DNA from: Owenia fusiformis
Lineage: Eukaryota > Annelida > Polychaeta > Sabellida > Oweniidae
Assembly: GCA_903813345.2 (NCBI GenBank)
Contig: CAIIXF020000008.1
Span: 34,310,867 to 34,374,866, forward strand
DNA: 64,000 nt
Direction of reading: 5' to 3'
The translations under genes were made by a program, and so were the position numbers. The notes under the pieces are model-generated. The model did not search any database and was not told the origin of the DNA. It worked only from the letters and a program-made list of their open reading frames with translations. Positions 7,366 to 35,800 of the stretch are shown here, piece after piece. How positions within the stretch are numbered: the stretch's first letter is position 1; every line of letters starts with the position of its first letter.

Positions 7366-8979
7366 TTACTTAACTTTTTTATCTGTTAAAACGTTGTTAC
7401 CCTTGGGTTTATTCCTTGAAAAACATTTCCTTATCATAGACATAAACATGACAATAACTAAAACAGCAAACCCTAATATGGAAAATAAAATGTCCAACAA
7501 ATAATACTGGAAAAAGTTTAATTCCTGCGTAGGAACTGACTTCAAGTGATCCGCACCGTTATGCTTCATGACATATTCAGCCCAGTATTTGATAGTTTGT
7601 GAAGCACTCATTGGTTGATCTCTGGCCAATGCCTGGGCTTTTAGAGCATTCTGTTTATACACTGGGTTCTTTAGGACATCATCTAAAGCATCTGAAAGTA
7701 GTTCTGTATTCACTTCATCAAAGATGACAAGTCGCCCCATTTTGTGACGATGGGTGAGGATCCCGCAATGCTGACGTTGGTCATAAAACAAAGGGATGCC
7801 AATGATAGGGACTCCATTATACACTGCTTCGGCAGATCCAGATGCCCCACAATGTGTCATAAACACTCGTAGGTTACGATGACTTAGGAGGTCATTTTGT
7901 GGAATCCATTTCACAAGCATTGTATTATTACCAAGTGTCTTAGGTGTGGGGCCCCCATATCGCCAGATCACTCGCTGTTTTAGATTCGCAAAAACTGACG
8001 CAAATATTTCACGCCTTTTTACGTCCATTCCTGTTGGCATCGATCCAAATGTTAGAATGATAAATCCATGTTCAGCGCCATCTACAAACTCTTTAAATGG
8101 AGAAGCTAATGGGTTTGCTTTTCGATCTTTCAAGCCAAGTACTGGAATGACATTTGGTAGAAGGGGTCTTGGGTAATAATAAGCAAAGTTTGATTGAACT
8201 AATAACAAATCAGCGTCAAACAAATATTTTTCTTTTGTATAATTAAGTCCAATTTTTGGTGCATATACCTTATGATAGTGTTCCTTCATTTCTATCCAAT
8301 CTCTCATGTAGTATCGTTCATTTATGTAATAGTATACATTATACATTCTCTCCGTGAAAGTCATTTCGTTTGAATATCCAGTAAATATATTTGGCACCGA
8401 TGATAGGGAGAGTGGAACTAACCAATCAGCGCAGTGGAATTCAAATCCAGCATTAGACCATAAAACAGTTGGAGCATCTAAATATTTTTTCATTAATGTA
8501 CCCAAAACAAAATCAACTGAATCAAAAATTGATAAATCAAATTTAGTTTCTTTCAATCTTGTAATTAAATCTGATGTGTAAAGATTTTCCATATTATTTG
8601 AAATGTACGCTTCTGTAACAGAACCACGTTCCATAAATGCTTTCATCTCATCTATGATAGACATCGATATATACTCTTGAACCATATCATCAGGTGGAAC
8701 ATACATTACTTTATCATTTGGGTACTGGTACTTCATGACATGTATCCCTGCAGTTGCGAAATCATCAGGGACTTTATATTCCGTATGTGCCAAATATGTT
8801 ATGTTGTGTCCAGCATCGGCCATAATCATGGCAATTTTTTCCATGGCAGCCATACGAGAATTTTTTGCTATCGAGGGAGGCTGTATGAATATATTTCCAG
8901 CATTAGCATTATTGCTCAGGCAAAAACACAGCAAAAAGCTGCTCCATATAAACAGGTTAGAAAGTGCCATGCTCTCCAT
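7366..8979 (-). CDS. UDP-glycosyltransferase, copy 2 (537 aa)
   Basis: Tandem paralogue of the gene at 2285-3889, same strand, about 5.08 kb upstream. It is also intronless, with the same order of parts: signal peptide, GH with the catalytic His (about residue 58), UGT signature ending DQ (about 358-401), C-terminal membrane helix and a KKVK dilysine tail. It starts MESMALSNL, three residues before the copy 1 start. Substitutions are scattered, with clusters in the acceptor-binding half (for example around residues 100-135 and 210-230), while the UDP-sugar half is nearly unchanged. The two copies may therefore differ in acceptor preference (inference). There is no frameshift or stop; both look functional. 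Confidence 0.93.
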   Translation of the reverse strand: MESMALSNLFIWSSFLLCFCLSNNANAGNIFIQPPSIAKNSRMAAMEKIAMIMADAGHNITYLAHTEYKVPDDFATAGIHVMKYQYPNDKVMYVPPDDMVQEYISMSIIDEMKAFMERGSVTEAYISNNMENLYTSDLITRLKETKFDLSIFDSVDFVLGTLMKKYLDAPTVLWSNAGFEFHCADWLVPLSLSSVPNIFTGYSNEMTFTERMYNVYYYINERYYMRDWIEMKEHYHKVYAPKIGLNYTKEKYLFDADLLLVQSNFAYYYPRPLLPNVIPVLGLKDRKANPLASPFKEFVDGAEHGFIILTFGSMPTGMDVKRREIFASVFANLKQRVIWRYGGPTPKTLGNNTMLVKWIPQNDLLSHRNLRVFMTHCGASGSAEAVYNGVPIIGIPLFYDQRQHCGILTHRHKMGRLVIFDEVNTELLSDALDDVLKNPVYKQNALKAQALARDQPMSASQTIKYWAEYVMKHNGADHLKSVPTQELNFFQYYLLDILFSILGFAVLVIVMFMSMIRKCFSRNKPKGNNVLTDKKVK

Positions 8980-10254: not shown

Positions 10255-11269
10255 TGAGAGGTAAACCAAATGAGGGCTTTAGATGATAAAAAGGTTAATC
10301 ATATCAGTAAACATATTCTGTTCATTCTGAACTTTCAGCTATTCTTGTATGGACACAATCACTGATAACCAGAAATGTATGGGATCTATATGTAATACAT
10401 CAAGGATACCAGTTCTGTGGGCCACCATGGTGAAAAAGTTGACAGAGAAGTCGACTTTTTCACCATGAGGAAATAAGAAGGCGAAACCATTAAGGTACAT
10501 ATTACATATCCTTTGTTGACAGTTTTTTCAATGAGTAATTGATTTAAGGAAAAGTGGATATGACTGGTCAAAAGTGATACCATTGATAAAAATGCATATA
10601 ACATCAGCACATAATTAGATCATGTGATTCAGTTTAAGTAGGCACTTCCTCATTGGATATAGCACGGGAAGAAGGAGGTACGGATTCTGGACTCCTGCTT
10701 AGGTGACTGATATTACAAGCATGAACTTCCATGATAAAATGGATGTGTCAAAAAATGATACAATATTTGCACTCTACTTTAAAATGCCTTGCATTTGAAT
10801 ATAATAAAGCTTTACTTCAGAAAGATATCAAAATTGACAAACATTCCTGTTTTCCCAACCATCCTACATAGCCTATGGGAGTTGTGGCGGATAACACAGA
10901 ACATATATGAAATATATAAATTTTTTGAATAAACAAACAAAATTAAAAAACAAAATGAAAAAATTGGTAATTGCAAAAAGTTCTACAGTTTTCAAAAGTG
11001 AGGGCCATCTTTAAAAAAATTTGGCTTAAAACTATTTTACAATGATCGCCATCTTTCAGCAAAATAGTCCACTAGTATTCAAGTTATTTTCATGACAGAT
11101 GGGCCGACTGAAGAATGGACAATGGGATACGCATTATCCTTTGTATGGATAATAACTGGATATTTGAGCTATCAACAATTACACTTTTACAAAGTTGTAA
11201 ACTCCAGTTGACCAAAGACAAAGATGTTGTATACTCCTATATTATCATCTTTGGATTAATTTAAATGTA
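10255..11269. other. Intergenic region between UGT copy 2 and transposon B
   Basis: No gene is seen. It includes the last part of the UGT upstream homology (to about 10390), a strong short hairpin at 10426-10467, and mixed AT-rich sequence that resembles dispersed repeat around 10840-11200. Confidence 0.45.
10426..10467. repeat. Short strong hairpin, 18-bp stem
   Basis: CATGGTGAAAAAGTTGAC and its near-perfect inverse GTCGACTTTTTCACCATG are separated by six bases (AGAGAA). The single difference would be a G-U pair in RNA. No function is known to me. It could be a small inverted duplication or a structured RNA element. Confidence 0.6.
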
Positions 11270-11289
11270 CCCTCACCAAAAATGTCTCT

Positions 11290-11590
11290 ATCTCTACCAG
11301 GAATCACTAGTGAAATCATAGCTAAAAACTAGAGAATCTCTAGTCATTCACTAGTGAAATATGTGTCTCTAGCTCTGTCACTAGTGAAGTAGAGATGTCT
11401 AGAGAAATCTAGCGATTAACTAGTGAAATACTAGAGAATCACTAGAGATGTCTCTAGTGATTCACTAGAGAATGTTACTAGAGAAGTCACTAGTAAGTTC
11501 TCTAGTCACTACTAGAGACTTCTCTAGCAGTCTCTAGTTTTCTCTATTTGCTACCTCCATATATTTTCTCTAGTATTTCTCTAGTATTTA
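11290..11590. repeat. CTAG-rich subterminal repeat block (copy B, left end)
   Basis: Inverse copy of the block at 1540-1800, differing at only a handful of bases. It is dense in ACTAGTGA and CTAGAGA words just inside the element terminus. Confidence 0.7.
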
Positions 11591-11729
11591 TAAAAAAATA
11601 CTAGTTTGATGGTAAGAATAAGAATGTCTAGATATATCTATTATAAAGCAAAACATGTTTCTTGTGCTTAACATAGGTAAATTACATACATCTGTTCTTT
11701 ATGATAACAATAACACAATTAGAAATGGC

Positions 11730-12481
11730 TTAAAGTGTCTCACATATTCGATCAAAATTTGCCATGCAAACATGTTAGTCTACTTAACTGGCCCCCCTTG
11801 CTGTAACAAGGAACACAAAACACATTGAAACGTAAACATAAACCAATTAGTCAGACGATCACTTCACTATGAAAGTTAGGGGTGTTCAAGGCAAATGTGT
11901 ATTAGCAGAATACGCTGTGTGCATGGACTAACACAATGTCAGTGGTCATTTACTGTGTCAACTTAGTAACCCTTGCATATCGTGCTCACTCGAGTATTGA
12001 ATAATTTTTTTTATGATCTAAATGTTTGTGGTTTATAAAAAATTGTGATATATTTTAGTTGGAAATACATTAATAAATATATTCATTCAAACAGCACTAG
12101 AATGCGGGAAGAAAGAGCAATGGTGACAAAATGCAGACAGAATTTTCCGTAAGGGTTTCAAACATTTCTGGACACAATCATACACGTAGTTCATGTGTAC
12201 TGTTATTTTTAGTGATGTATTTATAGATATAATTTCACGTATTAAAATCATATTTTCCAGCAATGACTTCAAATTCGGAACCACCCTCATATCACATTTT
12301 CTTCAATAACTCCAAACATGTGTAAACATTGACCATGTGCATATGAATTCAGATTTCACGAGCTCTTTTCTATTCGAGTACCTCATACACCCCTGCATGG
12401 ATTTGAGTTGGATTCGCCTTTTATACGTGAGTCGGTACACATCGCAAACGCTGATTGGATAAAGATTGCGAGAATCTTTAA
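11730..12481. mobile_element. Nested TTAA-flanked insertion, 744 bp
   Basis: TTAA occurs at 11730-11733 and again at 12478-12481. The equivalent site in copy A has a single TTAA (1370-1373) with the same flanks on both sides, so this is a clean filled/empty pair. Reading outward to inward, the ends are AGTGTCTCACA and, inverted, AGATTCTCGCA: short imperfect terminal repeats. TTAA duplication is the hallmark of piggyBac-type (and some Kolobok) insertion. No transposase is visible, so it is non-autonomous. Confidence 0.82.
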
Positions 12482-12595
12482 CAAGTATTTTGATAATATC
12501 ATAGAAATGAAAACATAAAAATGATTTATTACATTTTATTACACATAATTCTAAAAACCAAGTAAATACTGTATAAATGGTAATTTTGCCAATCA

Positions 12596-13136
12596 TTAAA
12601 TATGCTTACTTTCTAATTTTTGCCAAGTTCGGAAAATGAAATGTCGGAAATATTGTCTTAATAATGTTATCCAATATTCCTGTATCTGTTTCTCTACATC
12701 TATCTCAATGAAAAAAGCCCTGGGCTGGCCCTTGTCAGTCAGGCAGGGTATGTTGCAGTGAGTACACAAAACTCTTACTTCATTTTCAAAACCCTGGCTG
12801 CAGGTCTCACACACATGATGTAATCGTATGTGGGTATGTCCTCCAATAAGGAAGGCCTTATGTAAATGATGAAGTGACTGAAGATGTACAGGATTGGATG
12901 TTGTTTGAAGGTGAAGTCAAACTATTTCTATTAGATTTTTTATAAAATAATGTATACGTAGTATTGAATTTAAGACTGTGGTCTATGATGAGAAGGATAC
13001 TCTCCAGTGTGGATATTTGACTGCCTCTATACAGGGATTCATCTTTCAAAGATGTCAGATTGTCAACTAAATCTACTTCATCATCACTCTCTAAATCTAT
13101 TCTTTGTCTCTTCATCTTGTGCTTACTTGCGCTCAT
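12596..13136 (-). pseudogene. Transposase-like zinc-finger fragment (copy B)
   Basis: The predicted peptides are identical to those in copy A (715-1255): a charged N-terminal segment (12858-13136) and a His/Cys segment with CETC and CTHC pairs (12596 to about 12866). No downstream catalytic region is present between it and the left terminus at 11270. Copies A and B conserve the peptide exactly. That is explained equally well by recent divergence and by selection. Confidence 0.45.
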
Positions 13137-13249
13137 CTGGCGCTCAACAATGCCATTTTATTTTTTCCTATTATAGCAATATAATATTGCTTCTGATTGG
13201 CTCAATTGTATAAGGTTCAAGGTTTTATTTCAATAATTAGATATTAATG

Positions 13250-15240
13250 CCTTGTCTTATAAAATGACATATCTCAAAATGTCAATTGCTTTCTTGATTA
13301 TTGAGCTGAAATACTTTGGCATTTTGAGTGTTACCACAATTGTATCTTACATTTATGAGAAGCGATTAAAACTTCAAAAAACACTTGTAACTTTATCAAT
13401 AATTGTGCTAGAATTTTCAAAAACACACCATTTTAAAGCAAAAAATATAATCTTGCAAAATAGATAGATAAAATGAAAACATTTTATAAAATCTAGGAGT
13501 TGACTTTCAACAGTCAGCCAAATATTTTAGATAATACCAGGGCTAATTATAATTTCTCTAGTTTAAAACTATTGGAAAGGTGAAATAGTTATGACAATTA
13601 TATCTAAAAACACTTCTAAATTCTTTAATAATTGCACTATATTTTTCAAAAACACACCATCTTAAAGCAAAAAATATGATCTTTCAGAAAAAATAGATAA
13701 AATTACTTTTTTGTATAAAATGTAGAATTTGATTTTCAACAGGCAGACAAATATTTTAGATAATACCAATGCTAATTATAAGTTCTCTAGTGATTTCTCT
13801 AGCAACCACAAATGGCACTTCAAACTTCTGCAATGATTTCATTGTAGTTATCAAATAAATACTATTTTAAAGAAGAAGATATTATTTTTAGATTAAATAA
13901 GACATTTTATGACTTGTAAAAGTTAATTTCAACAGTTATTAGACATTTGCTGGAATTACACCACAAAATCCGCTAAAACGTTTTAGTGGAAGGCGCTTTA
14001 CAAAATCGCCATTCTGATTACACCAACATTTCTAAAGCGTCTTAGGAATTATATATTGGAATTACACCTGTTTTTTCTAAAACGCCTTTCGTGCACTTTT
14101 AATGATGTAGTTATGGATAATATCCAGCATACATATATGAGTACATCTCCTGTAAATATATTCTTTTTGCATCTAAGACAAAACTGATCTTCCATAATTT
14201 GATTAAAAATGCATGACATTGCATTATTTTTATTTATCTTTATCATAATAAAAAAGGTAAAAGAAAAACATGTACATATTCTCTGAAGATAACACTTGAT
14301 TTCGATGTGAACTGGCGACCATCATCCATTTTTCAATTTAGATATAGCCAGATAGCAGCGTGACCACACGTGGTGACCGGATGTCTCATCATGTATCAAA
14401 TGTTTCAAATGTATCAAATATTTCGTTTAGGACAAATGTTAAAAACTAGTAGAAACCCGGGTAAGGCTTCTTACAAAAACCGATCGGTATTACACTGCAC
14501 ACTTAAAACGCCTAACGACTTATGCCGTTTACTAGTGACAAGGGTTCTTGGAGTTTTAGAAAAGCGCTTTTGTAAAACCGCAATCGTGATTACACCTAAT
14601 TCTTAAACCTGGTTAAAACCGAAGAAGCTTTTGTAAAACGCCATGTGTAATTCCAGCAATTGTCTTCCATGAAACCAACTTGTAAATGTCTCTCATATTA
14701 AACTAGACATTAAGCTAGAATATGTATGGCATTTTTCATTTTAATACATTTCTAAATAATTTTTGCAATTATTGCACAATGCTTTTCAAATAAATACCAT
14801 TTTGAAGCAGAAAATATTATCTTGCACAGTAAAAATATATATAGAAATATTTTAGAAAATGCACAAGTTGACTTTGAATAGTCAGAAAAAGTGTGAAAAT
14901 ACCTACAAGGCTAATTGTAATGTCTCTAGTTTCAAACTCGGTGAAATAGGTTTGACAGTTATTTTTCAAAAACCTTCTAAATCATCCAATGATTACACTA
15001 GAAATGTCAGAAATTCTCTAGTTTAGAACTTTTGGAAAGGCAAATAATTATGAAAATTATTCTTAAAGACACTTCTAAATTATCCAATAATTTCACTAGA
15101 AATGTCAGAAACATACCATTTTAAAGCAGAAAATATGATCTTTCAGAATAAGTAAATGAAATGAAAATATTCTATAAAGTATAGAAGTTGATTTTCAACA
15201 GTCAGACAAATATTATAGATAATACCAAGGCTAATTATAA
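13250..15240. repeat. ~250-bp internal modules of transposon B
   Basis: Five or six diverged copies of a module are recognised by 'gctaattataa', 'cacttctaaatt', 'aacacaccattttaaagca' and 'tgattttcaacagtcagacaaat'. The array continues on both sides of the nested insertion at 13947-14659. Copy A carries the first modules at 1-600. Non-coding. Confidence 0.65.
13947..14659. mobile_element. Nested TIR element, 713 bp
   Basis: Perfect inverted ends TTGCTGGAATTACAC (13947-13961) and GTGTAATTCCAGCAA (14645-14659) interrupt the module array of the host transposon. The interior repeats the pair 'attacac' plus 'taaaacgcc' several times in both orientations, as in foldback MITEs. No target duplication is certain and no coding capacity is seen. 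Confidence 0.65.
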
Positions 15241-17832: not shown

Positions 17833-20800
17833 CTGAAACAACAACATTCAGAGAGACTTGATTTCTTGCAATTAAATTACATTCTGATTTCTAAACTTTT
17901 GATTCACTGCATCAGATTAATTGTTTCAAAGATCAATCATCAGTCAGATTAAGTTATATGAAAAAATTAGAAATTATTTTTATTTTACAAGACAAAAAAA
18001 TTCACATTATTTCCTTAGACATTTATTCATCACAATTATTATCAGAAAGAATCCTGGGAAACCCTTACCTGCCCAATCTGTCTCTGACGTTCTTATAGGC
18101 ATGAGTGAGATATGGTTGAAGATACTGCAAAAGTCTGTGGAGCAACTGGTTCACACGCCACTCCTGTTGAGCTAGGACACCCTGTAGTACATAAAGTCGG
18201 CTGAAATATAATACAGAGTGAGTCACATGTTCAGAACATCCTGTAGTAAACAGAGTCGGTTGAAATACAAAACAAAGTGTGTCACATATACAGAACACCA
18301 TGTACAGTAGAACAGAGTCGGCTGAAATACGATAAGTCAGTCACAAATACAGGACACCCTGTAGGACAATGAGTCGGCTGAAATACAATATGCAGTTTTC
18401 ATGATATGTTTATACACCAGGTGATATTATATATAATAACGAGGGAAAATTTTGATATCAATAATGGGGTTGTTATTACTGATTTATTCCATGATTACCA
18501 ATACCATCCTGATACCTGTCCTGGTTTGTAATATATGTAAGTTATTGTATTTACTGTAGCAATCACTGGTTAAATTTCACCCACCTTGCATCATTAAAAG
18601 AGCCACCAACTCCTCTCAGTGGATCCTCCATAAGAAGTTCAAACAATGGATGAAACTGTCTAGGGTCCCGATCCTGGGACATAGTCGCGAAACATGTCCC
18701 CCAATCCTCGACAGTTTCCACTGTCATATTATTCAGAGCAGTTCGTAAAACTGGACACAGCCACTCCCACATGGCCGTCACTTTTTCATAAGGCCAGTTT
18801 TTTGATCCGCGGACAAGACCCGCGATTATCTCAGCACCGACACGTTGGCTATAGTCATGTGTGTCGTGAGCTGTGTCTGCGACCAGTCTTTCTACATGGG
18901 GCTTATACACAGGCAGGAATGTATCTCCAAAATTCCTGAATAGTCCCTGAAAGTGTAAAAGTTAGAACATTTTGATATCCTAGACCTTATTAATTGTCAT
19001 CCATCTCTCCACAATTTAGATAGTACACTGTAAGTAAAATTCATGAAGATCCTGTAAACAGCAATTTTTGCAACTAAACTAGCATATCTAAATGAATATT
19101 TATGATGGTATATGATTTAGCTGACAAAACTTTTCAACATGTAAACATTTCATACATGAATCTGAAAACCAATAAAAACATGCACTATAAACTACATGTA
19201 TGTATGCTTACTTTGAATAGTAAAAAGTTCTTTGAGTTGAATTTGTCGCGTCCTTTCTGGTCCTCTAGAGTTAGATAATGCACAAACTTTGCCACATAGT
19301 CTGCATCTGAGAAACTTTCAAATATTGGCTTCTCTTCCTCTGATAAATCCTCCAGTTTTCTATCTAATCTTGGCTGTTGTGCTGCAGGGGCATAGGTGTA
19401 CATGTGCCTAAAATAAGAGAGTGTAGGTGTACATGTGCCTAAAATAAGAGGGCATAGGTGTACATGTGCCTTAAATAAGAGGGCATATGTGTACATGTGC
19501 CTTAAATAAGAGGGCATAGGTGTACATGTGCCTAAGATAAGGGAGAATATGTGTAGATATGCCTAAAATAACAGGGCATATGTGTACAGGTTCCTAAAAT
19601 AAGAGGGCATAGGTGTACAGGTTCCTAAAATAAGATATTTGGTGTACATGTGCCTAAAATAAGAGGGCATAGGTGTATATGTGCCTAAAATAAGAGGGCA
19701 TAGGTGTACATGTGCCTTAAATAAGAGGGCATAGGTATACATGTGCCTAAGATAAGGGAGAATAGGTGTACATATGCCTAAAATAACAGAGCCTTTGTGT
19801 ACAGGTTCCTAAAATAAGAGGGCATAGGTGTACAGGTTCCTAAAATAAGAAGGCATAGGTGTAAATGTGCCTAAAATAAGAGGGCATAGGTGTACATGTG
19901 CCTAATAAGAGGGCATAGGTGTAAATGTGCCTAATAAGAGAGAATAGTTGTACAATATGTCTCTAAAATAAGATGGCATAGAAATATTAATACAAAGGTA
20001 ACAGTTGTTTCTGAACTGTGAGGGCATATGCGAATATGAAACATGAGGGAAGAGGTGTACAAAAGTCTGATATATGAAGATATAGGCAAATAAAATTAAA
20101 GCAGAGCTGTACAATGTACATAGGGCTGAAAGATAGGGCTAATGCCTCCATAAATATAAAAAATGCTCAATTTAAAATCTTACTTTGGCCATGCGTAGTA
20201 GCCCCAAAAGGTTTTGTGAATCAAGGTGGTTTTATCAAAGTCTTCCTTTGTAGTTGGCACTGTGTCTTTGTTGTAAACATGCCATTGGTTGTCAGCCCGA
20301 TCACCAGGCCTCATTGGGGCTGTCGCCAGGGGGCGCTGTGTACCACTAAGGGCATACGGGTCTATCTCTACTTTCTTGAATTTTTGTTTTTGCTGCTGTA
20401 GTATAGCAGCCACTGAACTAACACATAGCTGAAAAAATATAATTTTTCAAATTATTGTTTCATAAATCAATGTGTTGTTCTTATACCATCCCTTATAAAG
20501 TGCAAATGCACAACTCCATTTTCTCCATATTATTTATCAGATAAATTATTACTTCTTGTTACTTCTTGTTTCAGAAAATAAATGAAAAACTTTATAAAGA
20601 AAACATTGGCATGTCTTTAGAAAGGATAACTTAACACAGAATAAAATTCTGGCTAATGACTCATTCTCCTAAATCTTGCAACTTGAAAAATGATTTAGCA
20701 ATCTAACCTACCTTTCTGACTGTGAGAGTTTCACTGATAAGGTTTTTCATGAATAACCTGACGCCATTTACAGGCATCCTGACATCAAAGCGTAACATCA

Positions 20801-23800
20801 GTGACACCAATTCCATTGACATCTCACTGAACTTCCAACGACTGAAAAATTTCATATCAAATAATACAGATTTTAGCTTTATATCCATATCAGTTATGTT
20901 TGGCTTATATAAGCTATGCAAAAAATGACGTTTTCTAGATCAATTTTTGATGAAATGAATATTTCCCTGATATTTGATTCTTTATTACAAGGCTTTTTCT
21001 CATGACTTATTGAGTGACCTGGTATATTGAATGTATCTTGGGATATAATACCACATTATTCTTAATAAACCCTTAATAAATACAACTACTTACAGTTTTC
21101 CACTGTTTATGAGGGATATCAGAGTCTCTACTAGGTTTAAGTACCCCCTGGAATACAACAGAATTAATTAATAAATGTATTGTTCCAATACGGATCAAGG
21201 TAACTTCTGCATGCTTAACTTTGAAAGTTTACTTTTCCAAAGTTAATAGGTATTTTCCAAAATGAAGGTTGAAAAGTAATTAAATCAGACAAAATATTTA
21301 TCAATATATAAAGGCATTTAAACTACATGTACAATCACTTGCAAACAAAATATTTTAACCCATAAAAAATGAATGAATGAAATATATACTCACTGAATCC
21401 ATTGAACAGTGTTCCTATTTATTTCCTCTTGTTTCCCTTCCTCTATCTCGGTCTGTGTAGCACTAGATACACTTGGGTTTGGTTGACTTGTGCATGTAAA
21501 TACAGCATTGGCTGCTTCTATACTGGACTGGGATGTCTAGAATATGCAGGGGATTATATTGTTATACATGTATGAACACCTGTAGGGGAAACAGTCCTAA
21601 CCCTGTGTTAATAACACCAGTTCAACACCATTACTCCCAATCTTCATGATTTATTAATATATTTAGAAATATCTCTCCATTTTAAAAAAAATTATTTACT
21701 TCCGCTATTGTCATAAATGCGATTGCGCAAGAAGTGAAATTCGTCTGACAAAGTTTGACCCCCTCCAAATATAAAGTAACTGAATTGTAGATTTTGTGGA
21801 TAGTTTACACTAAAACTGATAGAAAAATGATTATAGCATATGTATACATCTATTATTAACAGTGAAATGTATCCAGTATCATGAAATAACACTCAAAACA
21901 CAACCATGCGATAATTAGGATGACTGTGCGACAATTAGGACCACCACACATGCAAGTCTAAGGGGTCTTAAAGTGTTAGCATTCAAAGATTGAGAAATGT
22001 CAAACACAATTCAAATTATAGAAGAAAGGTTGATCTTTCGTTCCATACCCTCAAAATAAGTTTAAATTATCAAATTTGAAACAGTCAGTAGCTTTCCAGA
22101 GTACCCATGCGATGATAGGACCATTTCCCCTAATTCACTGTTTTGACTTGGCCTCACTCTCATTCTTAAAACGAACCCTAAACTATGGTTCTGTCAATAT
22201 TGCACCAACCAATTGTTTCCCTCATGCAAACAAGAAATTGATCAGGGATGAGAATAAAATGGGTTTCCACCTTTGACCCCCAAATGTACACAACAATATT
22301 GAATTGACATCATTTACTGAAAAGGACATCTTTAACAGGCCTTAATCATCCTCTTCCTTAACCTTAATGAGCATGCATTAGGTTGATCAGAATATGTGTT
22401 TATTTTATCTGAGGCACTTACTTCAATATTCACAGCACACGTCTCAACATTTTTGTGTATTTTATCACTTACTTCAATATTCACAGCACACGTCTCAGCA
22501 TTCTTGTGTATTTTATCACTTACTTCAATATTCACAGCACAAGTCTCAGCATTCTTGTGTATTTTATCACTTACTTCAATATTCACAGCACAAGTCTCAG
22601 CATTCTTGTGTATTTTATCACTTACTTCAATATTCACAGCACACGTCTCAGCATTCTTGTGTATTTTATCACTTACTTCAATATTCACAGCACACGTCTC
22701 AGCATTTTTGTGTATTTTATCACTTACTTCAATATTCACAGCACACGTCTCAGCATTCTTGTGTATTTTATCACTTACTTCAATATTCACAGCACACGTC
22801 TCAGCATTCTTGTGTATTTTATCACTTACTTCAATATTCACAGCACACGTCTCAGCATTCTTGTGTATTTTATCACTTACTTCAATATTCACAGCACACG
22901 TCTCAGCATTTTTGTGTATTTTATCACTTCAATATTCACAGCACAAGTTTCAGCATTCTTGTGTATTTTATCACTTACTTCAATATTCACAGCACACGTC
23001 TCAGCATTCTTGTGTATACGTATTTTACCACTTACTTCAATATTCGCAGCACACGTCTCAGCATTCGTGTATATTTTATCACTTACTTCGATATTCACAG
23101 CACACGTCTTAGCATTCTTGTGTATTTTATCACTTACTTCAATATTCACAGCACACGTCTCAGCATTCTTATGTATTTTATCAGCCATTTCATCAATAAT
23201 CTTCAATATGGATGGTTTCTCAGAGTGCTGGGCTTGACAGAGCTCTGGCCAGACCTGCTCCATGACCTCCCAGTTACGCTTGCATATAAGACTTCGCTGC
23301 TTTGTACCATTTAAAACATAAAGCGCCCCCTAGAAAAAAGATGTGTCTCAAAAAGCAATTTCTCCCAAAACTATGTTAAATATTAAAATATTGCAGATTA
23401 TGGTACTTTTTGACTCCGCTGTTTTGTACCATTCAAAACATATAGCGCTCCCTAGAAAAAAAGATGTCTCGATAAGCAGTGTGATGCCAGGTTAAATATA
23501 ACAAGGCATTAACATACAAAATGTCACAGCAACAGCCATTTGTTATAGACACCAAATGCCCAACACCAACCATCAAACACCAACTGCTGAACACTGTCCA
23601 CAAAAAGCTAGAGACCATAACAATGTTACCACTTGTGGTGATGACATAAAAACAGTTACACTTTAAGTCACAATTCAAAACAAAATTTCCTACTAGGATA
23701 TTATATAAGGCCTTTAAATCTAATTTATTGTAGATACATGTAAGCCTCAAATTAAATGAAAGATTCTTGACTGATAAAAGTTAATCTAGCAATTAGCTAT

Positions 23801-26800
23801 TGCATGCAGGCTCATTAATATTTGAGCATCAAATTATTAAATAAAATGGATTTTTTTGGATAAGCCTCAAATCCGTGAAAAATTCTTGACTGCTAAAAAT
23901 TAATCTAGAAATGAGCTAGGATCATTAACATTACCTTGAATTGCACATGGGCCTTTTCTTCATCCATGTCTGGTTTCACCTTGAGATGAGACATGATCTC
24001 AGGTAGTAGTTTCCTATAGGAGTAAGCAAACAGATGGAAACCTGTTGACAGCACTGACTGGGCCTGTTTACGAACCTTAAAGGAAAATTATAAGGACATT
24101 ATAATACAAGAAGGGAAAACCTGTTGCCTGCACTGACTGGGCCTGTTTACGAACCTAAAAGGAAAATTATAAGGATGATATAATACAAGAAGGGAAAACC
24201 TGTTGATAGCACTGACTGGGCCTGTTTACGAACCTAAAAGGAAAATTATAAGGACATTATAATACAAGAAGGGAAAACCTGTTGCCTGCACTGACTGGGC
24301 CTGTTTACGAACCTAAAAGGAAAATTATAAGGACACTATAATACAAGAAGGGAAAACCTGTTGACAGCACTGACTAAGCTTGGTTACGAACCTAAAAGGA
24401 AAACATATGAAGTAAAAAGTAAGGAAGCTATTATACATTGTAGGGAACAGGAAAACCTATGCTCCCCCATTATTATGGTTTAACAATTCCTTACCTAAAA
24501 AAGTCATGATTATTTTAAAAGTAGAAGAAGGGAGCTATTAAACATGTAGGAGATGGTGCAGGGTAACGCCAATTATGGGATCATTGCTATTCCTAATATT
24601 TAAACTTATTTCTTCACCATATTGAAGTATTTATTGTTGATACAGCATAGGTAGGGGTAATATTTTGTGGGGAAGGGATTTCTTACCTCACTGTAGTGGC
24701 TCAGAGATAACCTGAGAAGGTCTTCAAACAGACTTAGATGAAGTGGCGTGAAAGACTTGTTACTTTTTTGTACGACTCGCAGTTCATGCTGCAATTGGCA
24801 CCTGTCGACAATCAGAGCTCTCATGTGACGCTTTCCTCCTCGTAACTGCAAAATCACAAACAATACTATATTATACAAAAGTCTGTCCAAAATCACTGAG
24901 CTTGAATCAGGCCAATAAAAAAGAATTTTGATTTCCATTCTCTTGCAAGTTAACATTTTTCTAAGGATATATCTACCACCTGGCTTTGAACACTTCACAC
25001 TTGTAAACTATCTAGTCTCAGTTCAAAAAATATGTGACAACAAAAAATGATAAACTAGATAAGAAATATCAGAATCATTAAGAGTTTTAGAGAGTTTAGA
25101 ACAAGCACACTGACCTTATCCTCTGTTGTGGTCTTGACCATTTGGAAGCTTCTCCACCTGCCATCAAAGTCGGATTTGTCAGTACCATAGAAGTACATGA
25201 CAACATTGTAGAGCTTCAATATGTGAATCAGAGATTTGGTGTCATCTTCTGTGGTTGTTAATACATGACCTAGAAATGGGGTAACCCAGTTATTAGACCA
25301 CTAAGTGCTCAATGTAAGATTTCAATTGCCCATTGAAGTACATGACAACATTGTATAGCTTCAATATATGGATCAGAGATTTTGTGTCATCCTCTGTGTT
25401 TGTTAATACATGACCTAGAAATGAGGTAACCCAGTTATTAGACCACTAAGTGCTCAATGTAAGATTTCAATTGCCCATTGAAGTACATGACAACATTGTA
25501 TAGCTTCAATATATGGATCAGAGATTTGGTGTCATCCTCTGTGTTTGTTAATACATGACCTAGAAATGAGGTAACCCAGTTATTAGACTACAAAGTGCTC
25601 AATGTATGAACAATGTAAGATAAAAATTGCAGTTTCTCATTCTATCACGCTATGCTTCATTCCAGTTTTTACTGTTTAACACTTTGACGCAGGAATTTTT
25701 TCATTTATTGAAAATTTTAATTCTTTACTACAGCCTCAGTTTGGTATGCAAGCTAGTTCTCAGAAGCAAAAACTTTGTACTAGCAATGTAAAATGGTTTG
25801 ACATCTATAAATCAAAACAACACTTCTAATGGGTGTTTCATGTCAATAAGACATGGGTGCAAAGCCTATAATGTTAAATTTCTCTTAAATAGAAACACTC
25901 TTTTTACACCAAAAAGGCATTTATTCTCAAAATATTTCTGAAGATACCCAGAGTTGGCAAGACTCTGAATAGAACAGGGTGTCAAATAAATATGTACTCC
26001 CCCTCAACTTTAACATCCACAAAATGTCGCTTAACTTTTTTTGCCAGTATGATATCTGAATTGTTCTTTAGCAGATTAAAACTAGGCTTCATGGAGCAAC
26101 TCCACAAGAAGTTTTGGATGACTAGCTCACCTTTGTGCACTTTAATGCACAAAAGTTCATACTCTTGAAATCAAGGAGAGAACATATTTATTTGACACCC
26201 TGTATAGAAATACCAAATACAAGAGACTTACTTAGTAGCGGCTGCATGGTTTCTGCTATCCTACGCCGTACATGTTTCCCCTGAGCTGTTAATTGTGATG
26301 TTCCAATATTACATATATGACTACACCTGCCTAAAGGCACCATGCTGTCAATGCTGAAACACAAGGAAAAGAAAATACACAATACGTAAGATGAAATTCG
26401 AACCAATCAATCAAGTTCATTTGCCTAGATGAAAAATTGAAAGTTTTTAACAAAATATTGTACAATGTAATTAAAAATTGTAATCAAATGCTTTATACTT
26501 GTTTATCCAAAAAGATATCAAACTGAATATTACATTGTATCAAATGTAAGTAATATTACTACTGAATAAAAAAAAATTTCCTGACACTGCTGTGGATTTG
26601 AAAAATATTCACGAAAATTAATTGTATATTACGACATGTACAGTATATGTTATCAAGAACAATACGTACAAAGAAAATACATACTCTGTTGACTAAATAT
26701 AACACATTTGCTTCTCAGTTCAAATACTTTTTTTGAGGATCGTTTCTTATTTCTTAAACATGTAAGCACTGTTGCAAGAAGTTGGATGACAAAAATAACA

Positions 26801-29800
26801 AAAAACACTTAAAAAATGACAATTTCATCGTTAAATCAGTCATAATAAAATACCAGGCTCTGAGATGTCAAATACAAAGTGAGAGTGTTTACAGTTAGAC
26901 TTAAGATGTTTGGGTTCTCTTTCTTATCATACATAGAGACTTACAGGTGTACAGCTTCTCCTTCTATCATCGGCAGTTCATTGCCAGCTCCTATTACAAT
27001 GTTGAGTATTACTCCCAGCCTTGCTTTTAGATCATCCCTATAATAAACAACACATATTTAGCACTGAGTTCTCCAAACTACTATTAATAATTCTTGAAAA
27101 ATAGAATGCCAATTTTTAATGTTATAGATCATCAATTTATAAATATCTTATGTCACTGGGAACTAATCAATCTGAAAACTTTTAACAAGGCACAGGACGT
27201 GAACGAGATCACACCATCAAATAGGCAGACACTATGAACCAGGAAAACTGTTCTGCTATTATGTTTACAAATTTCAAGAACAAGAAAACAAGATGGCCGC
27301 CCAATCAGCTCTAGTACTTGATATCCTCAATCATTTGTGTAGATTTGAAGGAAATCCGATGAGCGGTTTTCCTGAAATGGCGATGACAAGATTTTTCAAA
27401 AAACCTTCAAAATGGCCACCAGAAAACAAGATGGCCGCCCAAAAGTTAATCAGCTCTAGTACTTGATATCCTCTATCATGTGTGTAAATTTGAAGGAAAT
27501 CCGATGAGCGGATTTTCTGAAATGGCGATGACAAGATTTTTCGAAAAATCTTCAAAATGGCTGCCAGAAAACAAGATGGCCGCCCAAAAGTTATTCAGCT
27601 CTAGTACTTGATATCCTCTATCATTTGTGTAAATTTGAAAGAAATCCAATGAGCGGTTTTCCTGAAATGGCAATGACAAGATTTTTCGAAAAACCTTCAA
27701 AATGGACGCCAAAAAACAAGATGGCCACCCAAAAGTTTTCCTTAAACGGCGATGACAAAAAGCGGGACGATCACGATCACGATCACGACCACGATCACGA
27801 CCAGTATGACGACTATATCCCACCGATGGTGTGATAAAAAAAAGAATGGGAAATGTTACATATCAACTTATCAATAACTCATGCATATCACTCCACCAAT
27901 AAAGATGAACTTATGTCAAATCAGCTATATCAATCAACTCACCACAATAGATCAACTCACCACAATAGATCAACTCAGTACAATAGATCAACTCAGCACA
28001 ATTGATCAACTCACCACAATAGATCAACTCACCACAATTGATCAACTCACCACAATAGATCAACTCAGCACAATAGATCAACTCACCACAGTAGATCAAC
28101 TCACCACAATAGATCAACTCAGCACAATAGATCAACTCACCACAATTGATCAACTCACCACAATAGATCAACTCAGCACAATATATCAGCTCACCACAAT
28201 AGATCAACTCAGCACAATAGATCAACTCACCACAATAGATCAACTCACCAATTTCAATCAAATCACTTCTTTGAAATATGAAATAGCCAATATCAATTCA
28301 CTGTTATTAAATCATTAACTCACCTTGATAAAGGTTCACCTGCAACGAAACTGTCCATCACCTGTAGTTCGGGGACAAGAATAGCGTCTATAAGTTCCTG
28401 TACAAACTCTAGTTCACTGTCACTAGGTGTGTGCCAGACCATCTTCAAGTCATGGATGTCTGCAGATTTGCCCCAGTCCTAATTTGAAAAAAATTTTTTA
28501 AAATGTTTTATTACCCTGATTGGCAAATAATCCTTGAACGGTTGTGAGAAATCTTCAGGTATGCTCCTAAAGTCCAATGGATAGATCATCGTTAGCGCCT
28601 TAAGGAGGTGTTGCAGCAGAACATGTGAGAGCTCATAGCCCTGTTTACAGGTAAGGTGGATGGTTCTCTGCAGAACTACCTTAATGTCTTCTTTATATGG
28701 TAATATATCTGACCCATTGCACCTTAGTACCTACAAATAATTGAAAACTTTTTAAAATATGTTTATGTTTATGTTTTATTTATTTCCTAAATTCCAAATA
28801 ATACAAGTCGATCACAATAGTGGAAGACACCCCAAGGGGCATATGATCCATGTTATATTAAACAAAAATATTTACAAGTAGCAAAACACATACAAGAAAT
28901 CAGTGCTCATTAGAATTAAAGATCGACACTAAATATTTCACATTTGGTTGGTCCCATCCTCCTCTACCCACGCTATATAGTCAGTGTTAAAGAGTTAAAC
29001 ACGCACAATGATTTTTACATCAATGCATTATTAAAGACCAGACAACACCCAATTATTTCACTGGACTTACGAGATGGTACGAAATGAATCACAAACAGAC
29101 ATATTTATTATGTGCCAAAGATAAAATTCAGAGGAATATTGCTGAAGATTAACTAATGCTGAAGATTTCAGTAAAAACAACTTGAATGTGCAGTACTCAT
29201 TTGAACTGACATTTAAACGTCATCCTCCAAACGCAGGGTTCAAGACCTCATCCATTAGGTTCCTTCATTGAGTTCTGGAGGCCTGTGTTTGGAGATCTGT
29301 TTAAACCTATATACTCTTCCATGTTTGTTAATGGAGATATATCCCTTGGGATTAATCCTATAGCCGAAACCTCCCAGTACATAAACCCTATATCCGAAAC
29401 CTTCAACCACCTAACCCTCATATATCCCTCAGTATAAAACCTATATCAAAAACCATCTTTCCAGTACCCTTATATGCTCTTCTAGTTTTCTAAACAGAGT
29501 TTCATATTTCTTCCATTCTCTCACCTCTGACATCATTTGCATGTTCCAAAGTAACTCATCATCTAAATGCTCCTCTTTCTGGACATCTTCATTCTCAGTC
29601 AACTGTTTAATAACTCTTGTACAGTGAGGTATAAACAGCTTCAAGGCTTCTGGAGGGTTTGTCTTAGCTGCAGCACGACACATATCTGCACACAGTCGAC
29701 CTGACACCTTTAGTTCAAATACTGTACTACTGGCAAACCGGAACAGCTTGTTCAGTGCAACCTAGAATATGAGAGTTCAAAAATGTTTGTTCAAGAATGG

Positions 29801-32800
29801 AGACCTGATTGCGCTTTAATAGACAATTTTGGCAAGTTGTGCTAAAGAACAACATATTTGGAATATTACAGAATATAGATATTATACCAAGCCCCAAATA
29901 AAGCTCAAATCAGATGCAGTGTATGGAAATAAATGAAGTGAGTTCAAAAGATGTCAAAGTTTTAAAATAAATTGTGAAGTAGTTTTGCGGACTCAAATTT
30001 TAACATTTGACTTCAAAATCAGCCTCATCTGTATATACCCTAAAGTTATTCCTGAAAACATATTTGAACTTTTAAGAAAATCAATTATTTAAATTTTGGA
30101 CCATTAGAAGGTACAATAAACCTAGAACCTTGGTATGGGATATATCTGTTATGTATGGTTATTTAGTAACACATATTTCCCATACAATGACATTCTGCTA
30201 TTGAACTTGACTGAATCTAGTTTTACCCTATTATCACCCATATATTTACTTTTGAAATTCCCTGGGGATTTTGTAATTTGAGACATATCCTATAGGAGAA
30301 TTTGGGAGATGCCCTGTGTGTTTAATGGAGGGAATATGGTATATGAATGTAGTAATCAATTCAAAAAACATGAATTCTCCAAGGTATAGCACAGGAGCAT
30401 TGATTTACAAGTGTTCAGCTTAGGACATAAATTTTGTGATATCACACTTTTGAAAAATGATTTTTTAAACTTTATATTGATAAATTATTTTGATGGACTC
30501 AGTAATGACATTTTTAACATATTTTTGTTGTTATGAAGCAATTGACCCTTTTCCATATAAATGGAAAAAATAGATGGCATCATGAGTATTGGTAGGGCTA
30601 AATAACATGGTCACTTAATAGCAAGAGTCACTTAATTTCTTGATTTAACAAGTAATTTAATTTTGATCAACTTAAAACGCCATTGGAATGTAACTATATG
30701 ATATTATTGACATGTGGATTATGATTTCACATTTAAATTGTAATCCTTATAAGAGAAAATGACATTTTAAAGGGTTTTCAACATTGTGTCAATGGGGATT
30801 CATTATTAGAAAACTTAGAAAATCTCTAGAATTTGAATAAAGGTAGATAACAGTGCAAATCAAAGTTGTTTTGATACAAAATAACACATAGAATTCAAAT
30901 ATGCCATCAAATAGAAGAAAATGTTAGTCTTTAGTGGTTAAAAATGCAGATCTCCTAAAATCTCATTAGAAACGAGGCCTTAACGAGATTTCAAACCTAT
31001 ATGGAAAAGCCTCTATTACATCATGGTCATTTCAATATGAAAATATAAAATAAACATTTTATCATAAACATATTTTAGGCCTCACGTTGAACAACCACCT
31101 TAATTATATTGAGGATGGTAAACTTGACATTAAAGTTATTACAAGTACCTACAAACTGACTGGATATCCTAACATTTATGGTGTTTAATTGATAACTAAT
31201 TTTGGGCAGACTAAATTGTACAATGTGTATTTACATAACATTTCAATTTGATTGAAACTCTAGGGTATTTTTGTTGAAAGATATGGAACTGTTTGACAAA
31301 AAGAGAATTGAAGATTGCTTGATTGATGCTTGATTGTTGAAGCAAGACCATTAAGAATATTTTTCTAGATCTACTTCTGTTAATTAATTCAATTTTATAT
31401 CATTTTTCATTAATGTTCAAAGCATTATCCAGTCTACTTTTGATTTGAATCTAACTCAACTATTCTCGGGTGAGGTTGCTTTACTTTAACCTTTAGTTGC
31501 GTTAGATGAATCAATAGATAACTCCAATATTTAAACATTGTGTTTATATTTGCAAAGGATATTTACATTAGCATTGAAACAGCAGTATTCATAAGGAGCA
31601 GTATACAAGTTTTTTTGAGTTTTTTAAGCTGCGTCAGGCTTAACCTCCAAGTCTATGACCTAAGTTTGAATGTACTAAAATTTTAATATTGAATATAAGC
31701 CATGTCTCACTTGAAACACATTCACATCTAAAGGAACAGAGGAAACTAGGATGTGTGTGTAATCAAAGAAATTTTGAACAAGTTGTTTAAAGGACATAAA
31801 AATGATCCATTCAGGGCATCTTTTGGGTCACATAATAGTAATAGTGTCATCTTGTCACAATGTCATACTTGTATCTATTTTTGAAAAGAAACATAATTTT
31901 ATTGAATATATCTAGCTAAGACTTGTCTGTCACTAAAGAGGTATTGTTATTTTCTTATAGATAACACAGCCACTGACAAATTGAAAAAAACATGGCATCT
32001 GCAAGTCCCCAAACAGTTTTAGTCGATGATTACAAAGAACTTTTGATCTGTATTATCTGCTTCGGGACATTAACTGATCCTAAATCAATATCTTGTGGAC
32101 ATTCCTTTTGTAAGAGATGTATAGGGAAATGGATGGGAAAACATAAAGCAAAAGGGAATGATCGATATCCATGCCCTGTATGCAATAAGCAACTCAAGAT
32201 TCCAAAGAATGGTGCTGATGCATATGGCACAAACATAACTATCAAGTCTATGGTTGAGATCTTGGAGAACCAGCTGACCAAAGGACACAATCAGAATGTC
32301 AACTGTGATATTTGCATTCAAGAGGGTGAAGCTGTACCTGCCATGTCCCGTTGTGTCGAGTGTGCCGAACACATGTGCAAGCCTTGCAATAAAGCCCATC
32401 GGAGAATGAGAGCAACCCAATCCCACACAATCTATGACTTGACTGGAGATGCCGAGAAGGATGCTAGAGCTGCCCTGGATAATTATGTAAAGCGCAACAT
32501 AGAATGTCCAAAGCATCCCAATCAGCCTCTCAGATTCTTTTGCAAGCAAGATAAAGCTGTTATTTGCAGGGACTGCTCAATCACAGAACATCCTGGTCAC
32601 AACTGTCAAGCCATTGAAGAAGCAGCAAAAGGAGAAGAACGCAACATAGCTGCATTACTTGGTTTAGCCACTCAGAGGAAAGAAATATTTGATAAATTCA
32701 TCCAATCAGCCCATGATTCCATTCAATCATGTGAGAGAAACACACAAGCTCTACTCCGAGACATAGATGCTGACCATGCTGCTACGAAGAAACAATTGGA

Positions 32801-35800
32801 TGAACATTTTGATAAGCTCAGAAATAAAGCCAAAGCTGCTGCCAATGAGAAAAAGAAGAAGATCCAAGCAAACCAGGACCAGTTCCAACTTAACAAAGGG
32901 ATAACTGAGAGTACATTGCTTCAGTTGAATCACCTCAGAAAATATAACCATCCCGTAGATGTCCTCAACTACAGTGCTAATGTACTTAAGAAATTGGAAG
33001 AATGGTCCACTTTGCCTGAAGAGAATGTTGTACCTCTTGACCCCTACAAATATCAACCTGGCATCCTTGATACATCTAATTTGGGGAAACAGCTGAAGGT
33101 TCCAAAGTACTGTGATCCTAAGATATCCAAGGGGGTACATCTACCTGATAAGAACCCAGGAGTAGGAAACATTCTAGGCCTTGCAAGAGGATACAACAAC
33201 AACATTGTTGTATCTCATGGTTGGGATGGTCTTGCAATTTATACTGCTGATTTCTTTACCCTACAGCATAAAGCCCAGGGTAGGTTCTGGGATGCTGTAT
33301 GTATGTGTCTGTGTTGTATTCAGTCTCAATATTATGCAGCTGCTGATCGTAACAACAATTGCATAGCAGTACTTGATAAGAAGCTGGAGCATCAGAGGAA
33401 TATTGGGAAGTTTCAAGATCCCATTGGATTATGTGAGACAGCAGATGGTAAACTACTGGTTGTTGATGATGGTGCCAAGTGTGTCTACCTTATTGACTGT
33501 AATGATGGGAATGTATTGGCTACTATTGGTGAAGGCAAGCTCACAGACCCTCGCTATGTAACAATAAATCACAAAGGTATCATCTTTGTGTCTGATCTAA
33601 GTGAACATTGTGTGAAGAGATTTACCATGGAAGGTGAAGAGGTACCAGGTGCATATGGTTCTCGGGGTGTAGGGATAGGTCAGCTGAATTGTCCACTGGG
33701 AGTCTGCATTGACTCTCAGGACAATCTCATCATTGCTGATCATAACAACCACAGAGTCCATATGGTAGATCCTAATGGGACATTCATCAAGTACTTGTTG
33801 GTGGCTGAGGATGGTATGAAACCCTGGAGTGTTGCCATTGATCAACAAGGTGATCTTATTGTGGGGTCATATAACAGTGGAGATCTAACCATTATCAAGT
33901 ACATTGAGTAGAGATCAAGTACATTGAGTAAGAAGAACTACACAGTGAAACATGGACATGACAATGCATTGATATATGGATTATGATACATGCACTGTCA
34001 TTCTGAACATATGTAACATATTGTGGAACATAAACTTCAAACTTTAAATTTGTCATCAATATTGACTATGAATGTATTAACTGTATATATGTATATTAAT
34101 CCAAAAAGTTAAAATAGATAAGAGAATACACACAACTGTATAAAATGATGGACATTGATAAGGACTATATAAATGTTGAAACACTTCAACACATGCATAT
34201 CATTAATGAAAAGTATCATTGTAAGTACAATTTAATCACTGAAGCATTCTACAAATCATCAAGAATCATTTTTTTACAATAAAGTTTAAATCTGATTTAG
34301 TGCATTTTTGTATTCATTGGTGCGCATTAAAATTATATAAAACTATATATTTGCTGCCTTAAAATTAAATTCAATAGAAAATGCAAAAATGCTTTGTTAA
34401 GTGTAGGTGAAATTTATAGGTAGCCAAGAATGCACAGGGCAATTTTCTCCCCACATCAGGGCTCAGTTACTAAATGTTATTTGGGTATGAGGGTCTAGAT
34501 GGGGGGAGGGGTGGTGCTGATGTTAACTTTACCTCGTATATCTTATCAAGTCTGCTTCAGTATACAGTTGAATGTAGATAGCAGCCCTATGTCTAGCATT
34601 TGTTCCTCAGGGTTCATTTATGAAATGTTGTATGTGTAGGGGGAACTACATGATGAGGGGGGGTGAAGACCTTACCTTGTATATCTAAGTAGAACTCTGC
34701 TGCAATATAGAGTTGAATGTAGATAACAGCCTCATCTCTAACATTTGTACCTCAGGATTCATTTATGAAATGTTGTATGTGTAGGGGGAACTACATGATG
34801 AGGGGGGTGGTAAAGACCTTACCTTGTATATCTTAGTAGAACTCTGCTGCAGTATAGAGTTGAATGTAGATAACAGTCCCATTTCTAACATTTGTTCCTC
34901 AGGATTCATTTATGAAATGTTGTATGTGTTGGGGGAACTACATGATGAGGGGGGGGGGTAAAGACCTTACCTTGTATATCTTAGTAGAACTCTGCTGCAG
35001 TATAGAGTCGAATGTAGATAACAGCCCCATCTCTAACATTAGCTCCTCGGGGCTCATTTATGAAATGTTGTATGTGTGGGGGAACAACATGATGAGGGGG
35101 GGGGGTGTAGACCTTACCTTGTATATCACAGTTTCAATTTCAAAAGCGCCCCAGGCGCTTATTACAGCGAATATGGTATAGTGGTGAAAATATGGTCAAG
35201 AGAACAAAAACAAATGACAGAAAAATGTTTTGACTCATACAGATAGCTGATCATTAGCAGGGCATTCTTACCTACATGTTTGTAATGCAAGGTTAATCTA
35301 ACTTTTTAAATGCTGAATTGCTCTTTATGAGATGTTACCTATTGGAGATTAAAGTCACAAAATTACTTTAATATCATTGCTAAAATTATCATCAATGGAG
35401 GACTGTTCAAAGACAAAACAAGACACACAGTGATAAATATTGTACTTTGAACAACAAAATGGTCACCATGTAATTTACCCAGCATGGCCAAAACTTAATC
35501 AGATCTTTGCAGTAGTCTGCTCTTGCATCTAAAAAATTCAAGTTAAAAGTTGTTTTCCTGGAATTTTGATGACAAGAATTGATTTGTAATCTCGATCTTT
35601 GAGAAACTTAGAAAACATGACCCAGTTTGATGATCTTTACCTTCACTTGTCTAGATGTGGCAGTAGGTCTTTTGTAATAAAGCTGACCTAAAGAATCCAA
35701 AAAATTCAAAAGTCAATTTTTTGACCTTCCAAAGGTCACTGCAAGTCAACCCAAGGTCAAATCTCAAATGAATGTCAATTTTAAACTCCTGAGAACTTTT

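Follow-up and report, generated by a model that had tools for sequence, protein, structure and literature searches.

A donor-repeating 51-bp minisatellite at an exon-intron border of PSME4/PA200 that is probably neutral

Intron 7 of human F7 contains 37-bp repeats of an exon/intron donor region, with cryptic donors, and the minisatellite of human IFI6 (6-16) has a 12-bp unit. Our literature search for the factor VII intron 7 repeats gave no match. For IFI6, PMC4526556, which cites Turri et al. 1995, describes minisatellite units acting as splice donors, two downstream units being used to give three mRNA species. The mirage minisatellites of amphioxus, located in Adh3, the globin genes BflGb6 and BflGb9, TnC and PGBD5, consist of units that extend across an exon-intron border and carry the splice signal along in each repeat, on acceptor and donor sides alike; copy number differs among haplotypes in BflGb6, the PGBD5 repeats are called imperfect, and splicing is apparently undisturbed (PMC3902484). 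Human internal tandem repeats include variable minisatellites at exon borders, in recently duplicated genes and segmental duplications, and the genes treated in PMC2812944 are primate-specific, many having transcript support for altered structure. For protostomes, a limited full-text literature search returned no splice-site-spanning minisatellite in the portions of text it covered; the one protostome paper listed concerned prawn lectins, in which coding tandem repeats are combined with alternative splicing (PMC7536079), and we make no claim of priority.

The window, by which we mean the whole 64,000-nt stretch of DNA analysed here, carries on its minus strand a tandem array of 15 head-to-tail 51-bp units at about 22413-23183, within a PSME4/PA200 gene, and as a repeat this array is far beyond chance (TRF: 22415-23183, period 51, 15.0 copies, 93% match, score 1351). 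A 51-nt segment comprising the end of an exon and its splice donor is thereby present in 14 extra copies in the intron that follows (Table 1). Scans with Rfam and for tRNAs gave no matches. The exon in question begins behind an AG acceptor, ends in GCTGTGAATATTGAA/GTAAGT (slashes mark borders throughout), and corresponds to positions 1026-1092 of human PA200 (E 3e-6; 1026-1281 when the following exons are included, E 7e-41) and 1008-1075 of Lingula PSME4 (59%). In a protein search that scored 7992 candidates and gave 501 matches, of which the best 120 form our homologue alignment, Lingula PSME4 was the top match (47% identity), with molluscs next among those 120. Lingula residues 351-1534 were matched in the window by tblastn except for 536-585, 792-857 and 1076-1138; two exons placed by eye, with edge and alignment checks, and two from a separate comparison fill 792-857 and 1076-1138, and no exon for 536-585 was located in either of the two PSME4 copies considered below.

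Table 1. Features of the PSME4/PA200 locus in window positions; the last two columns compare repeat copy number at the same exon edge.
Feature	Position	Strand	Basis or remark	Window	Second gene copy
PSME4/PA200 exon bordering the array (exon 13 of the earlier note), 192 nt, end phase 0	23138-23329	minus	GALYVLNG...AETCAVNIE		
Unit 0: last 45 nt of exon + GTAAGT, donor D1 at 23137	23132-23182	minus			
Added units 1-4, in frame with exon	22926-23131	minus	unit-by-unit split		
Added units 5-14, frame shifted relative to exon	22416-22925	minus	near-identical among themselves; GTAAGT in 10/10		
Single-copy intron start	22380-22415	minus	GCCTCAGATAAAATAAACAC		
Next exon, acceptor TTCTAG/ACA, phase 0	21394-21536	minus	placed by eye, alignment		
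Sister array, 145-bp unit over acceptor 25269	25185-25606	minus	TRF, edges	2.9 copies	160 bp, 4.4 copies; +20.6 copies elsewhere there
Sister array, 79-bp unit over acceptor 24075 of upstream exon	24038-24403	minus	TRF, edges	4.6 copies	78 bp, 7.7 copies
Sister array, 31-bp unit over acceptor 19407	19388-19981	minus	TRF, edges	19 copies	~14 copies
Sister array, 59-bp unit over acceptor 18200	18177-18390	minus	TRF, edges	3.6 copies	5.5 copies

An earlier note on this DNA had described the unit as made up exactly of the final 45 exon nt and GTAAGT, and a unit-by-unit split (units 0-14) bears this out. All units measure 51 nt except unit 3 (57 nt, from a 6-bp insertion that is in frame, as had been claimed), unit 4 (47 nt, shortened by 4 bp through a deletion at 22926) and the final one, which merges into single-copy intron. 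Donors recur along the array because one boundary-crossing segment was copied, yet the claim that every unit ends in a perfect donor applies to 14 of the 15, which close with GAA/GTAAGT, and not to unit 4, which closes with GAA/GTGATA. Only D1 (23137), D2 (23086), D3 (23035) and D4 (22978) are intact, in frame and stop-free, an arrangement of the IFI6 type that is confined to these four; their first 7 intron bases are identical, and splicing at them would add 0, 17, 34 or 53 residues respectively. A fifth site, D5 (+70 residues), is GTGATA only, at 22927, and D6-D15 lie in a shifted frame with a stop ahead of each donor. The in-frame donor ladder that had been proposed for donors 1-5, with 0-4 extra repeats, is thus real but shorter, with perfect donors at D1-D4 for 0-3 added units, and the 4-bp deletion, previously put at about 22925, does remove a donor and close the frame but leaves three, not four, added units with perfect donors. 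With four intact, in-frame, stop-free donors so alike in sequence and a precedent in human IFI6, the array could be read as a multi-donor minisatellite giving PA200 isoforms that carry from none to three additional 17-residue repeats, with an allele-dependent length, a reading that we consider improbable on the evidence of homologues, of a second gene copy and of the substitutions within the array.

When D1 is joined to the next exon, which it meets without a gap relative to homologues, the alignment gives a 26-residue junction segment, and 115 of the 120 homologues (best 120 of 501 matches) have this length, with 5 shorter and none longer. Because its 26-residue segment matches homologues, D1 is the donor that gives PA200 of normal length, and a junction insertion found in 0 of these 120 counts against isoforms with added repeats. 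Taken with the single unit of the second copy, the homologue junction length points to D1 as the authentic donor. It is likely, although not certain, that D1 is also the donor mainly used; its exclusive use is not a given, because in human IFI6 repeat units further downstream also serve as donors.

A genome search spanning 498 Mb in 525 contigs, in which copy counts are lower bounds (at least one other copy), located a second copy of the exon at G000:C8:34485608-34485793, about 150 kb away, 98% identical and without the array. There, exactly one unit with one donor is joined straight to the intron (exon-GTAAGTGCCTCAGCTAAAATAAAC), and the last unit in the window reads GTAAGTGCCTCAGATAAAATAAAC; the sequence after the exon in the second copy is GTAAGTGCCTCAGCTAAAATAAACACATATTC, and that after the last unit in the window is GTAAGTGCCTCAGATAAAATAAACACATATTC. 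The single-copy intron start of the window recurs with 1 difference directly behind the sole donor of the second copy, whose only unit equals the consensus of the distal units. Since this single unit is continuous with the intron, the array occupies exactly the place where exon and intron meet. Expansion from one unit would be the simplest direction of change, although the single unit could also represent a contraction and not the ancestral state. Copy number accordingly varies, with 15 units in the window against 1 in the second copy, whether the two are alleles or paralogues, and the one donor of the other gene copy is a further point against the isoform reading.

Both PSME4 copies are under purifying selection in their exons. 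Over about 1,133 codons in 20 exons, with one approximate exon start shifted to 26325, 64 synonymous and 13 nonsynonymous substitutions separate them, and there are no stops and no gaps (dS 0.092, dN 0.0049, dN/dS 0.054), and on the strength of this ratio and of the lack of stops and gaps, a gene copy with five exon-edge arrays stays constrained. The exon bordering the 51-bp array is 192 nt long in both copies and shows 6 differences in a base-by-base comparison, used in place of a default alignment that had inserted one gap. In window-based positions, the other copy has N-terminal exons at 231334-211035, middle exons at 205199-164073 and C-terminal exons at 125254-122811; tblastn left Lingula residues 151-166, 264-302, 338-350, 536-585, 792-857, 1076-1138 and 1535-1592 uncovered there, 264-302 being partly recovered at a looser threshold. 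The window copy comprises middle exons, with C-terminal exons 3' of it that are 99.3% identical to those of the other copy. N-terminal exons (the first ~350 residues; Lingula 1-337) were matched with the other copy only, none being found between the window copy and the neighbouring gene. This would suit a window copy that is a decaying partial duplicate, making the array a pseudogene feature, which would be compatible with neutrality but which we hold to be unlikely: a dN/dS of 0.054 over 20 exons free of stops and gaps is unlike a long-dead pseudogene, C-terminal exons are present, and an alternative haplotype assembled in tandem fits too. The window copy would fit either a divergent haplotype that the assembly has put in tandem or a functional paralogue.

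Two further observations concern the architecture of this region. A third set of PSME4 C-terminal exons lies upstream of the window copy, at window-based positions 86684-78484. A 15.5-kb block (G000:C8 34290867-34306382) is 99.5% identical between the two PSME4 copies, its counterpart lying 153.5 kb away, which, set against the middle-exon dS of 0.09, may reflect recent conversion, recent duplication or a haplotype mosaic.

Within the array, changes in units 1-4, classed by hand, comprise, besides the insertion, 5 nonsynonymous and 3 synonymous substitutions, so that all unit-level tests involve few changes. The same exon shows 0 nonsynonymous and 6 synonymous differences between copies (Fisher p 0.031 against units 1-4), and the whole-gene count of 13 to 64 likewise differs from that of units 1-4 (p 0.009). 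The codon-level comparison that the earlier note had suggested, of units before and after the frameshift, finds no significant difference in kind of change, units 5-14 having 1 nonsynonymous and 2 synonymous distinct changes (p 0.55). Substitutions are denser in units 1-4 (8/204 positions) than in units 5-14 (6/510; p 0.031), the reverse of the pattern expected from selection on the coding part, but commonly seen where array ends escape homogenisation. We considered selection on the repeat peptide and rejected it, as the 5 to 3 ratio in units 1-4, few as the changes are, gives no sign of it, and the same ratio in added in-frame units speaks against the isoform reading. A functional length-variable exon end, which the earlier note had put forward as possible, is not supported: the second copy has one donor, D1 alone restores the homologue junction length, and the in-frame units, with their few changes, show no sign of purifying selection.

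Donors within the array are conserved no more than expected by chance, with 0 of 11 distinct substitutions falling in donor hexamers (P ~0.25). This bears on another reading, in which D6-D15 would occasionally be used and lead to nonsense-mediated decay, array length thereby tuning expression. Each exon extension to one of these ten GTAAGT donors does run into a stop, but the deletion and the copy number resemble ordinary repeat turnover and the donors are not conserved beyond chance, so that we regard such regulatory or noisy use as highly improbable.

We consider it probable, with good confidence, that the array is a neutral boundary-spanning minisatellite, a 'donor mirage', and that it is probably silent because D1 is used. 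It may have begun with a short tandem duplication across the PSME4 exon/intron border, possibly through ~2 bp of microhomology (TG), with which the unit-to-unit junction GTAAGTG/ATAAAA is consistent; alternatively, a longer duplication between GATAAAATA words of exon and intron could have been followed by a 6-bp loss. Slippage or unequal exchange would later have raised the count to 15 units, with the latest growth at the intron end. With D1 unchanged, splicing there would leave the added units intronic and the protein as before, hiding the array from selection, and the same would apply to the acceptor-side arrays of PSME4. A duplication that crosses a splice site is silent because its additions become intron as long as the exon-adjacent site stays in use, and this rule would account for these arrays without any function.

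The 51-bp array is one of five at exon edges in the window: 5 of the 40 edges of the 20 window exons lie inside arrays, namely the 51-bp donor and four acceptors. Tandem arrays account for 18.1% of the window, 15.8% of the gene span (both figures from main TRF rows merged by hand) and 16.0% of the surrounding 289 kb, and 5/40 shows no enrichment at exon edges, either against a circular-shift null (mean 5.9, P(>=5) 0.66) or against independent placement (mean 5.5, P 0.61). Edges 26340, 26203 and 17686 do not fall on AG/GT, so these exon ends are approximate; all five in-array edges do. Among 16 further terminal exon matches (8 N-terminal, and two sets of 4 C-terminal ones from different copies), an acceptor array of 80 bp and 23.3 copies lies near 213225, another of 105 bp and 30.7 copies lies near 125254 and is absent at the counterpart exon at 86684, and one array starts at a donor near 226580. 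Seven boundary-spanning arrays over the locus divide into 6 acceptor and 1 donor, an asymmetry that is not significant (p 0.125), and two of them (51 and 105) have unit lengths divisible by 3, as expected by chance (P(>=2) 0.74). Within the window the 51-bp unit is the sole such multiple among the five, and at 1/5 its frame compatibility is unremarkable; the 79-bp unit has itself become a multiple of 3, at 78 bp, in the second copy. Of the five window arrays, only the 51-bp one lacks a counterpart in the other copy; the remaining four have one at the corresponding exon edge, though of a different size.

Other repeats and coding sequences of the window were noted in passing. The 31-bp array, which precedes a PSME4 exon and is also present in the second copy, repeats an acceptor region ~19 times, with the consensus TCTTATTTTAG/GCACATGTACACC. 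An 18-bp array at 27933-28250, with a donor-like core GGTGAGTT, lies ~74 bp past an exon end, has 17.7 copies against 49.7 in the second copy, and contains long ORFs on both strands. A perfect inverted repeat (1-1373 and 12478-13850; 1373 nt, 100%, 11 kb apart), with a further 465-nt arm pair (1370-1834 and 11269-11733, 99%), encloses two similar long minus-strand ORFs at 2288-3895, which scores as a UDP-glycosyltransferase, and 7366-8979. Three similar long plus-strand ORFs (31977-33911, 38715-40631, 53909-55825), on the opposite strand to PSME4 and between its exons at 57416 and 29761, all match a single 60.8-63-kb stretch of the second copy; the one that was scanned is RING/B-box/NHL (TRIM-like). 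The same inter-exon stretch holds, at 42632-47897, pieces of a non-LTR-type retrotransposon, judged by eye from endonuclease- and reverse-transcriptase-like ORFs.

Even if silent, the array is a natural minigene, with 14 GTAAGT donors in a row and a one-donor gene copy nearby, and private base changes in units 0-4 would reveal the chosen donor in RNA, providing a natural test of how cells pick among identical splice sites. A very improbable outcome is an allele-length series, in which the spliceosome would spread its use over four in-frame donors of identical sequence, spaced at 51-57 nt, in a constrained housekeeping gene, adding 0-53 residues at a PA200 junction of conserved length; if true, the protein isoforms of an invertebrate would form a ladder set by minisatellite length. 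For one gene of an apparently protostome animal, the seven arrays at this locus, roughly the rate given by a local repeat density of about one-sixth of the 289 kb examined, indicate that minisatellites spanning exon borders can be frequent and that a gene under strong purifying selection tolerates them; such arrays provide raw material from which new introns and exon extensions can arise.

Compared with known systems, the PSME4 array resembles F7 intron 7 in repeating an exon/intron donor region, the F7 unit not being a multiple of 3. It resembles IFI6 in that its units carry splice donors, predicted here from sequence and used in mRNA in IFI6, and it shares an exon-border position with the human internal tandem repeats. 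As in the amphioxus mirages, the 51-bp unit, 45 exon nt plus GTAAGT, spans an exon-intron border together with its splice signal; unlike them, it has a host that is apparently not a lancelet (PSME4 being nearest to Lingula at 47%, then molluscs, among the best 120 of 501 matches) and donor units that happen to be in frame. The PSME4 array joins a kind known from amphioxus and human segmental duplications; a multi-donor minisatellite is known from IFI6.
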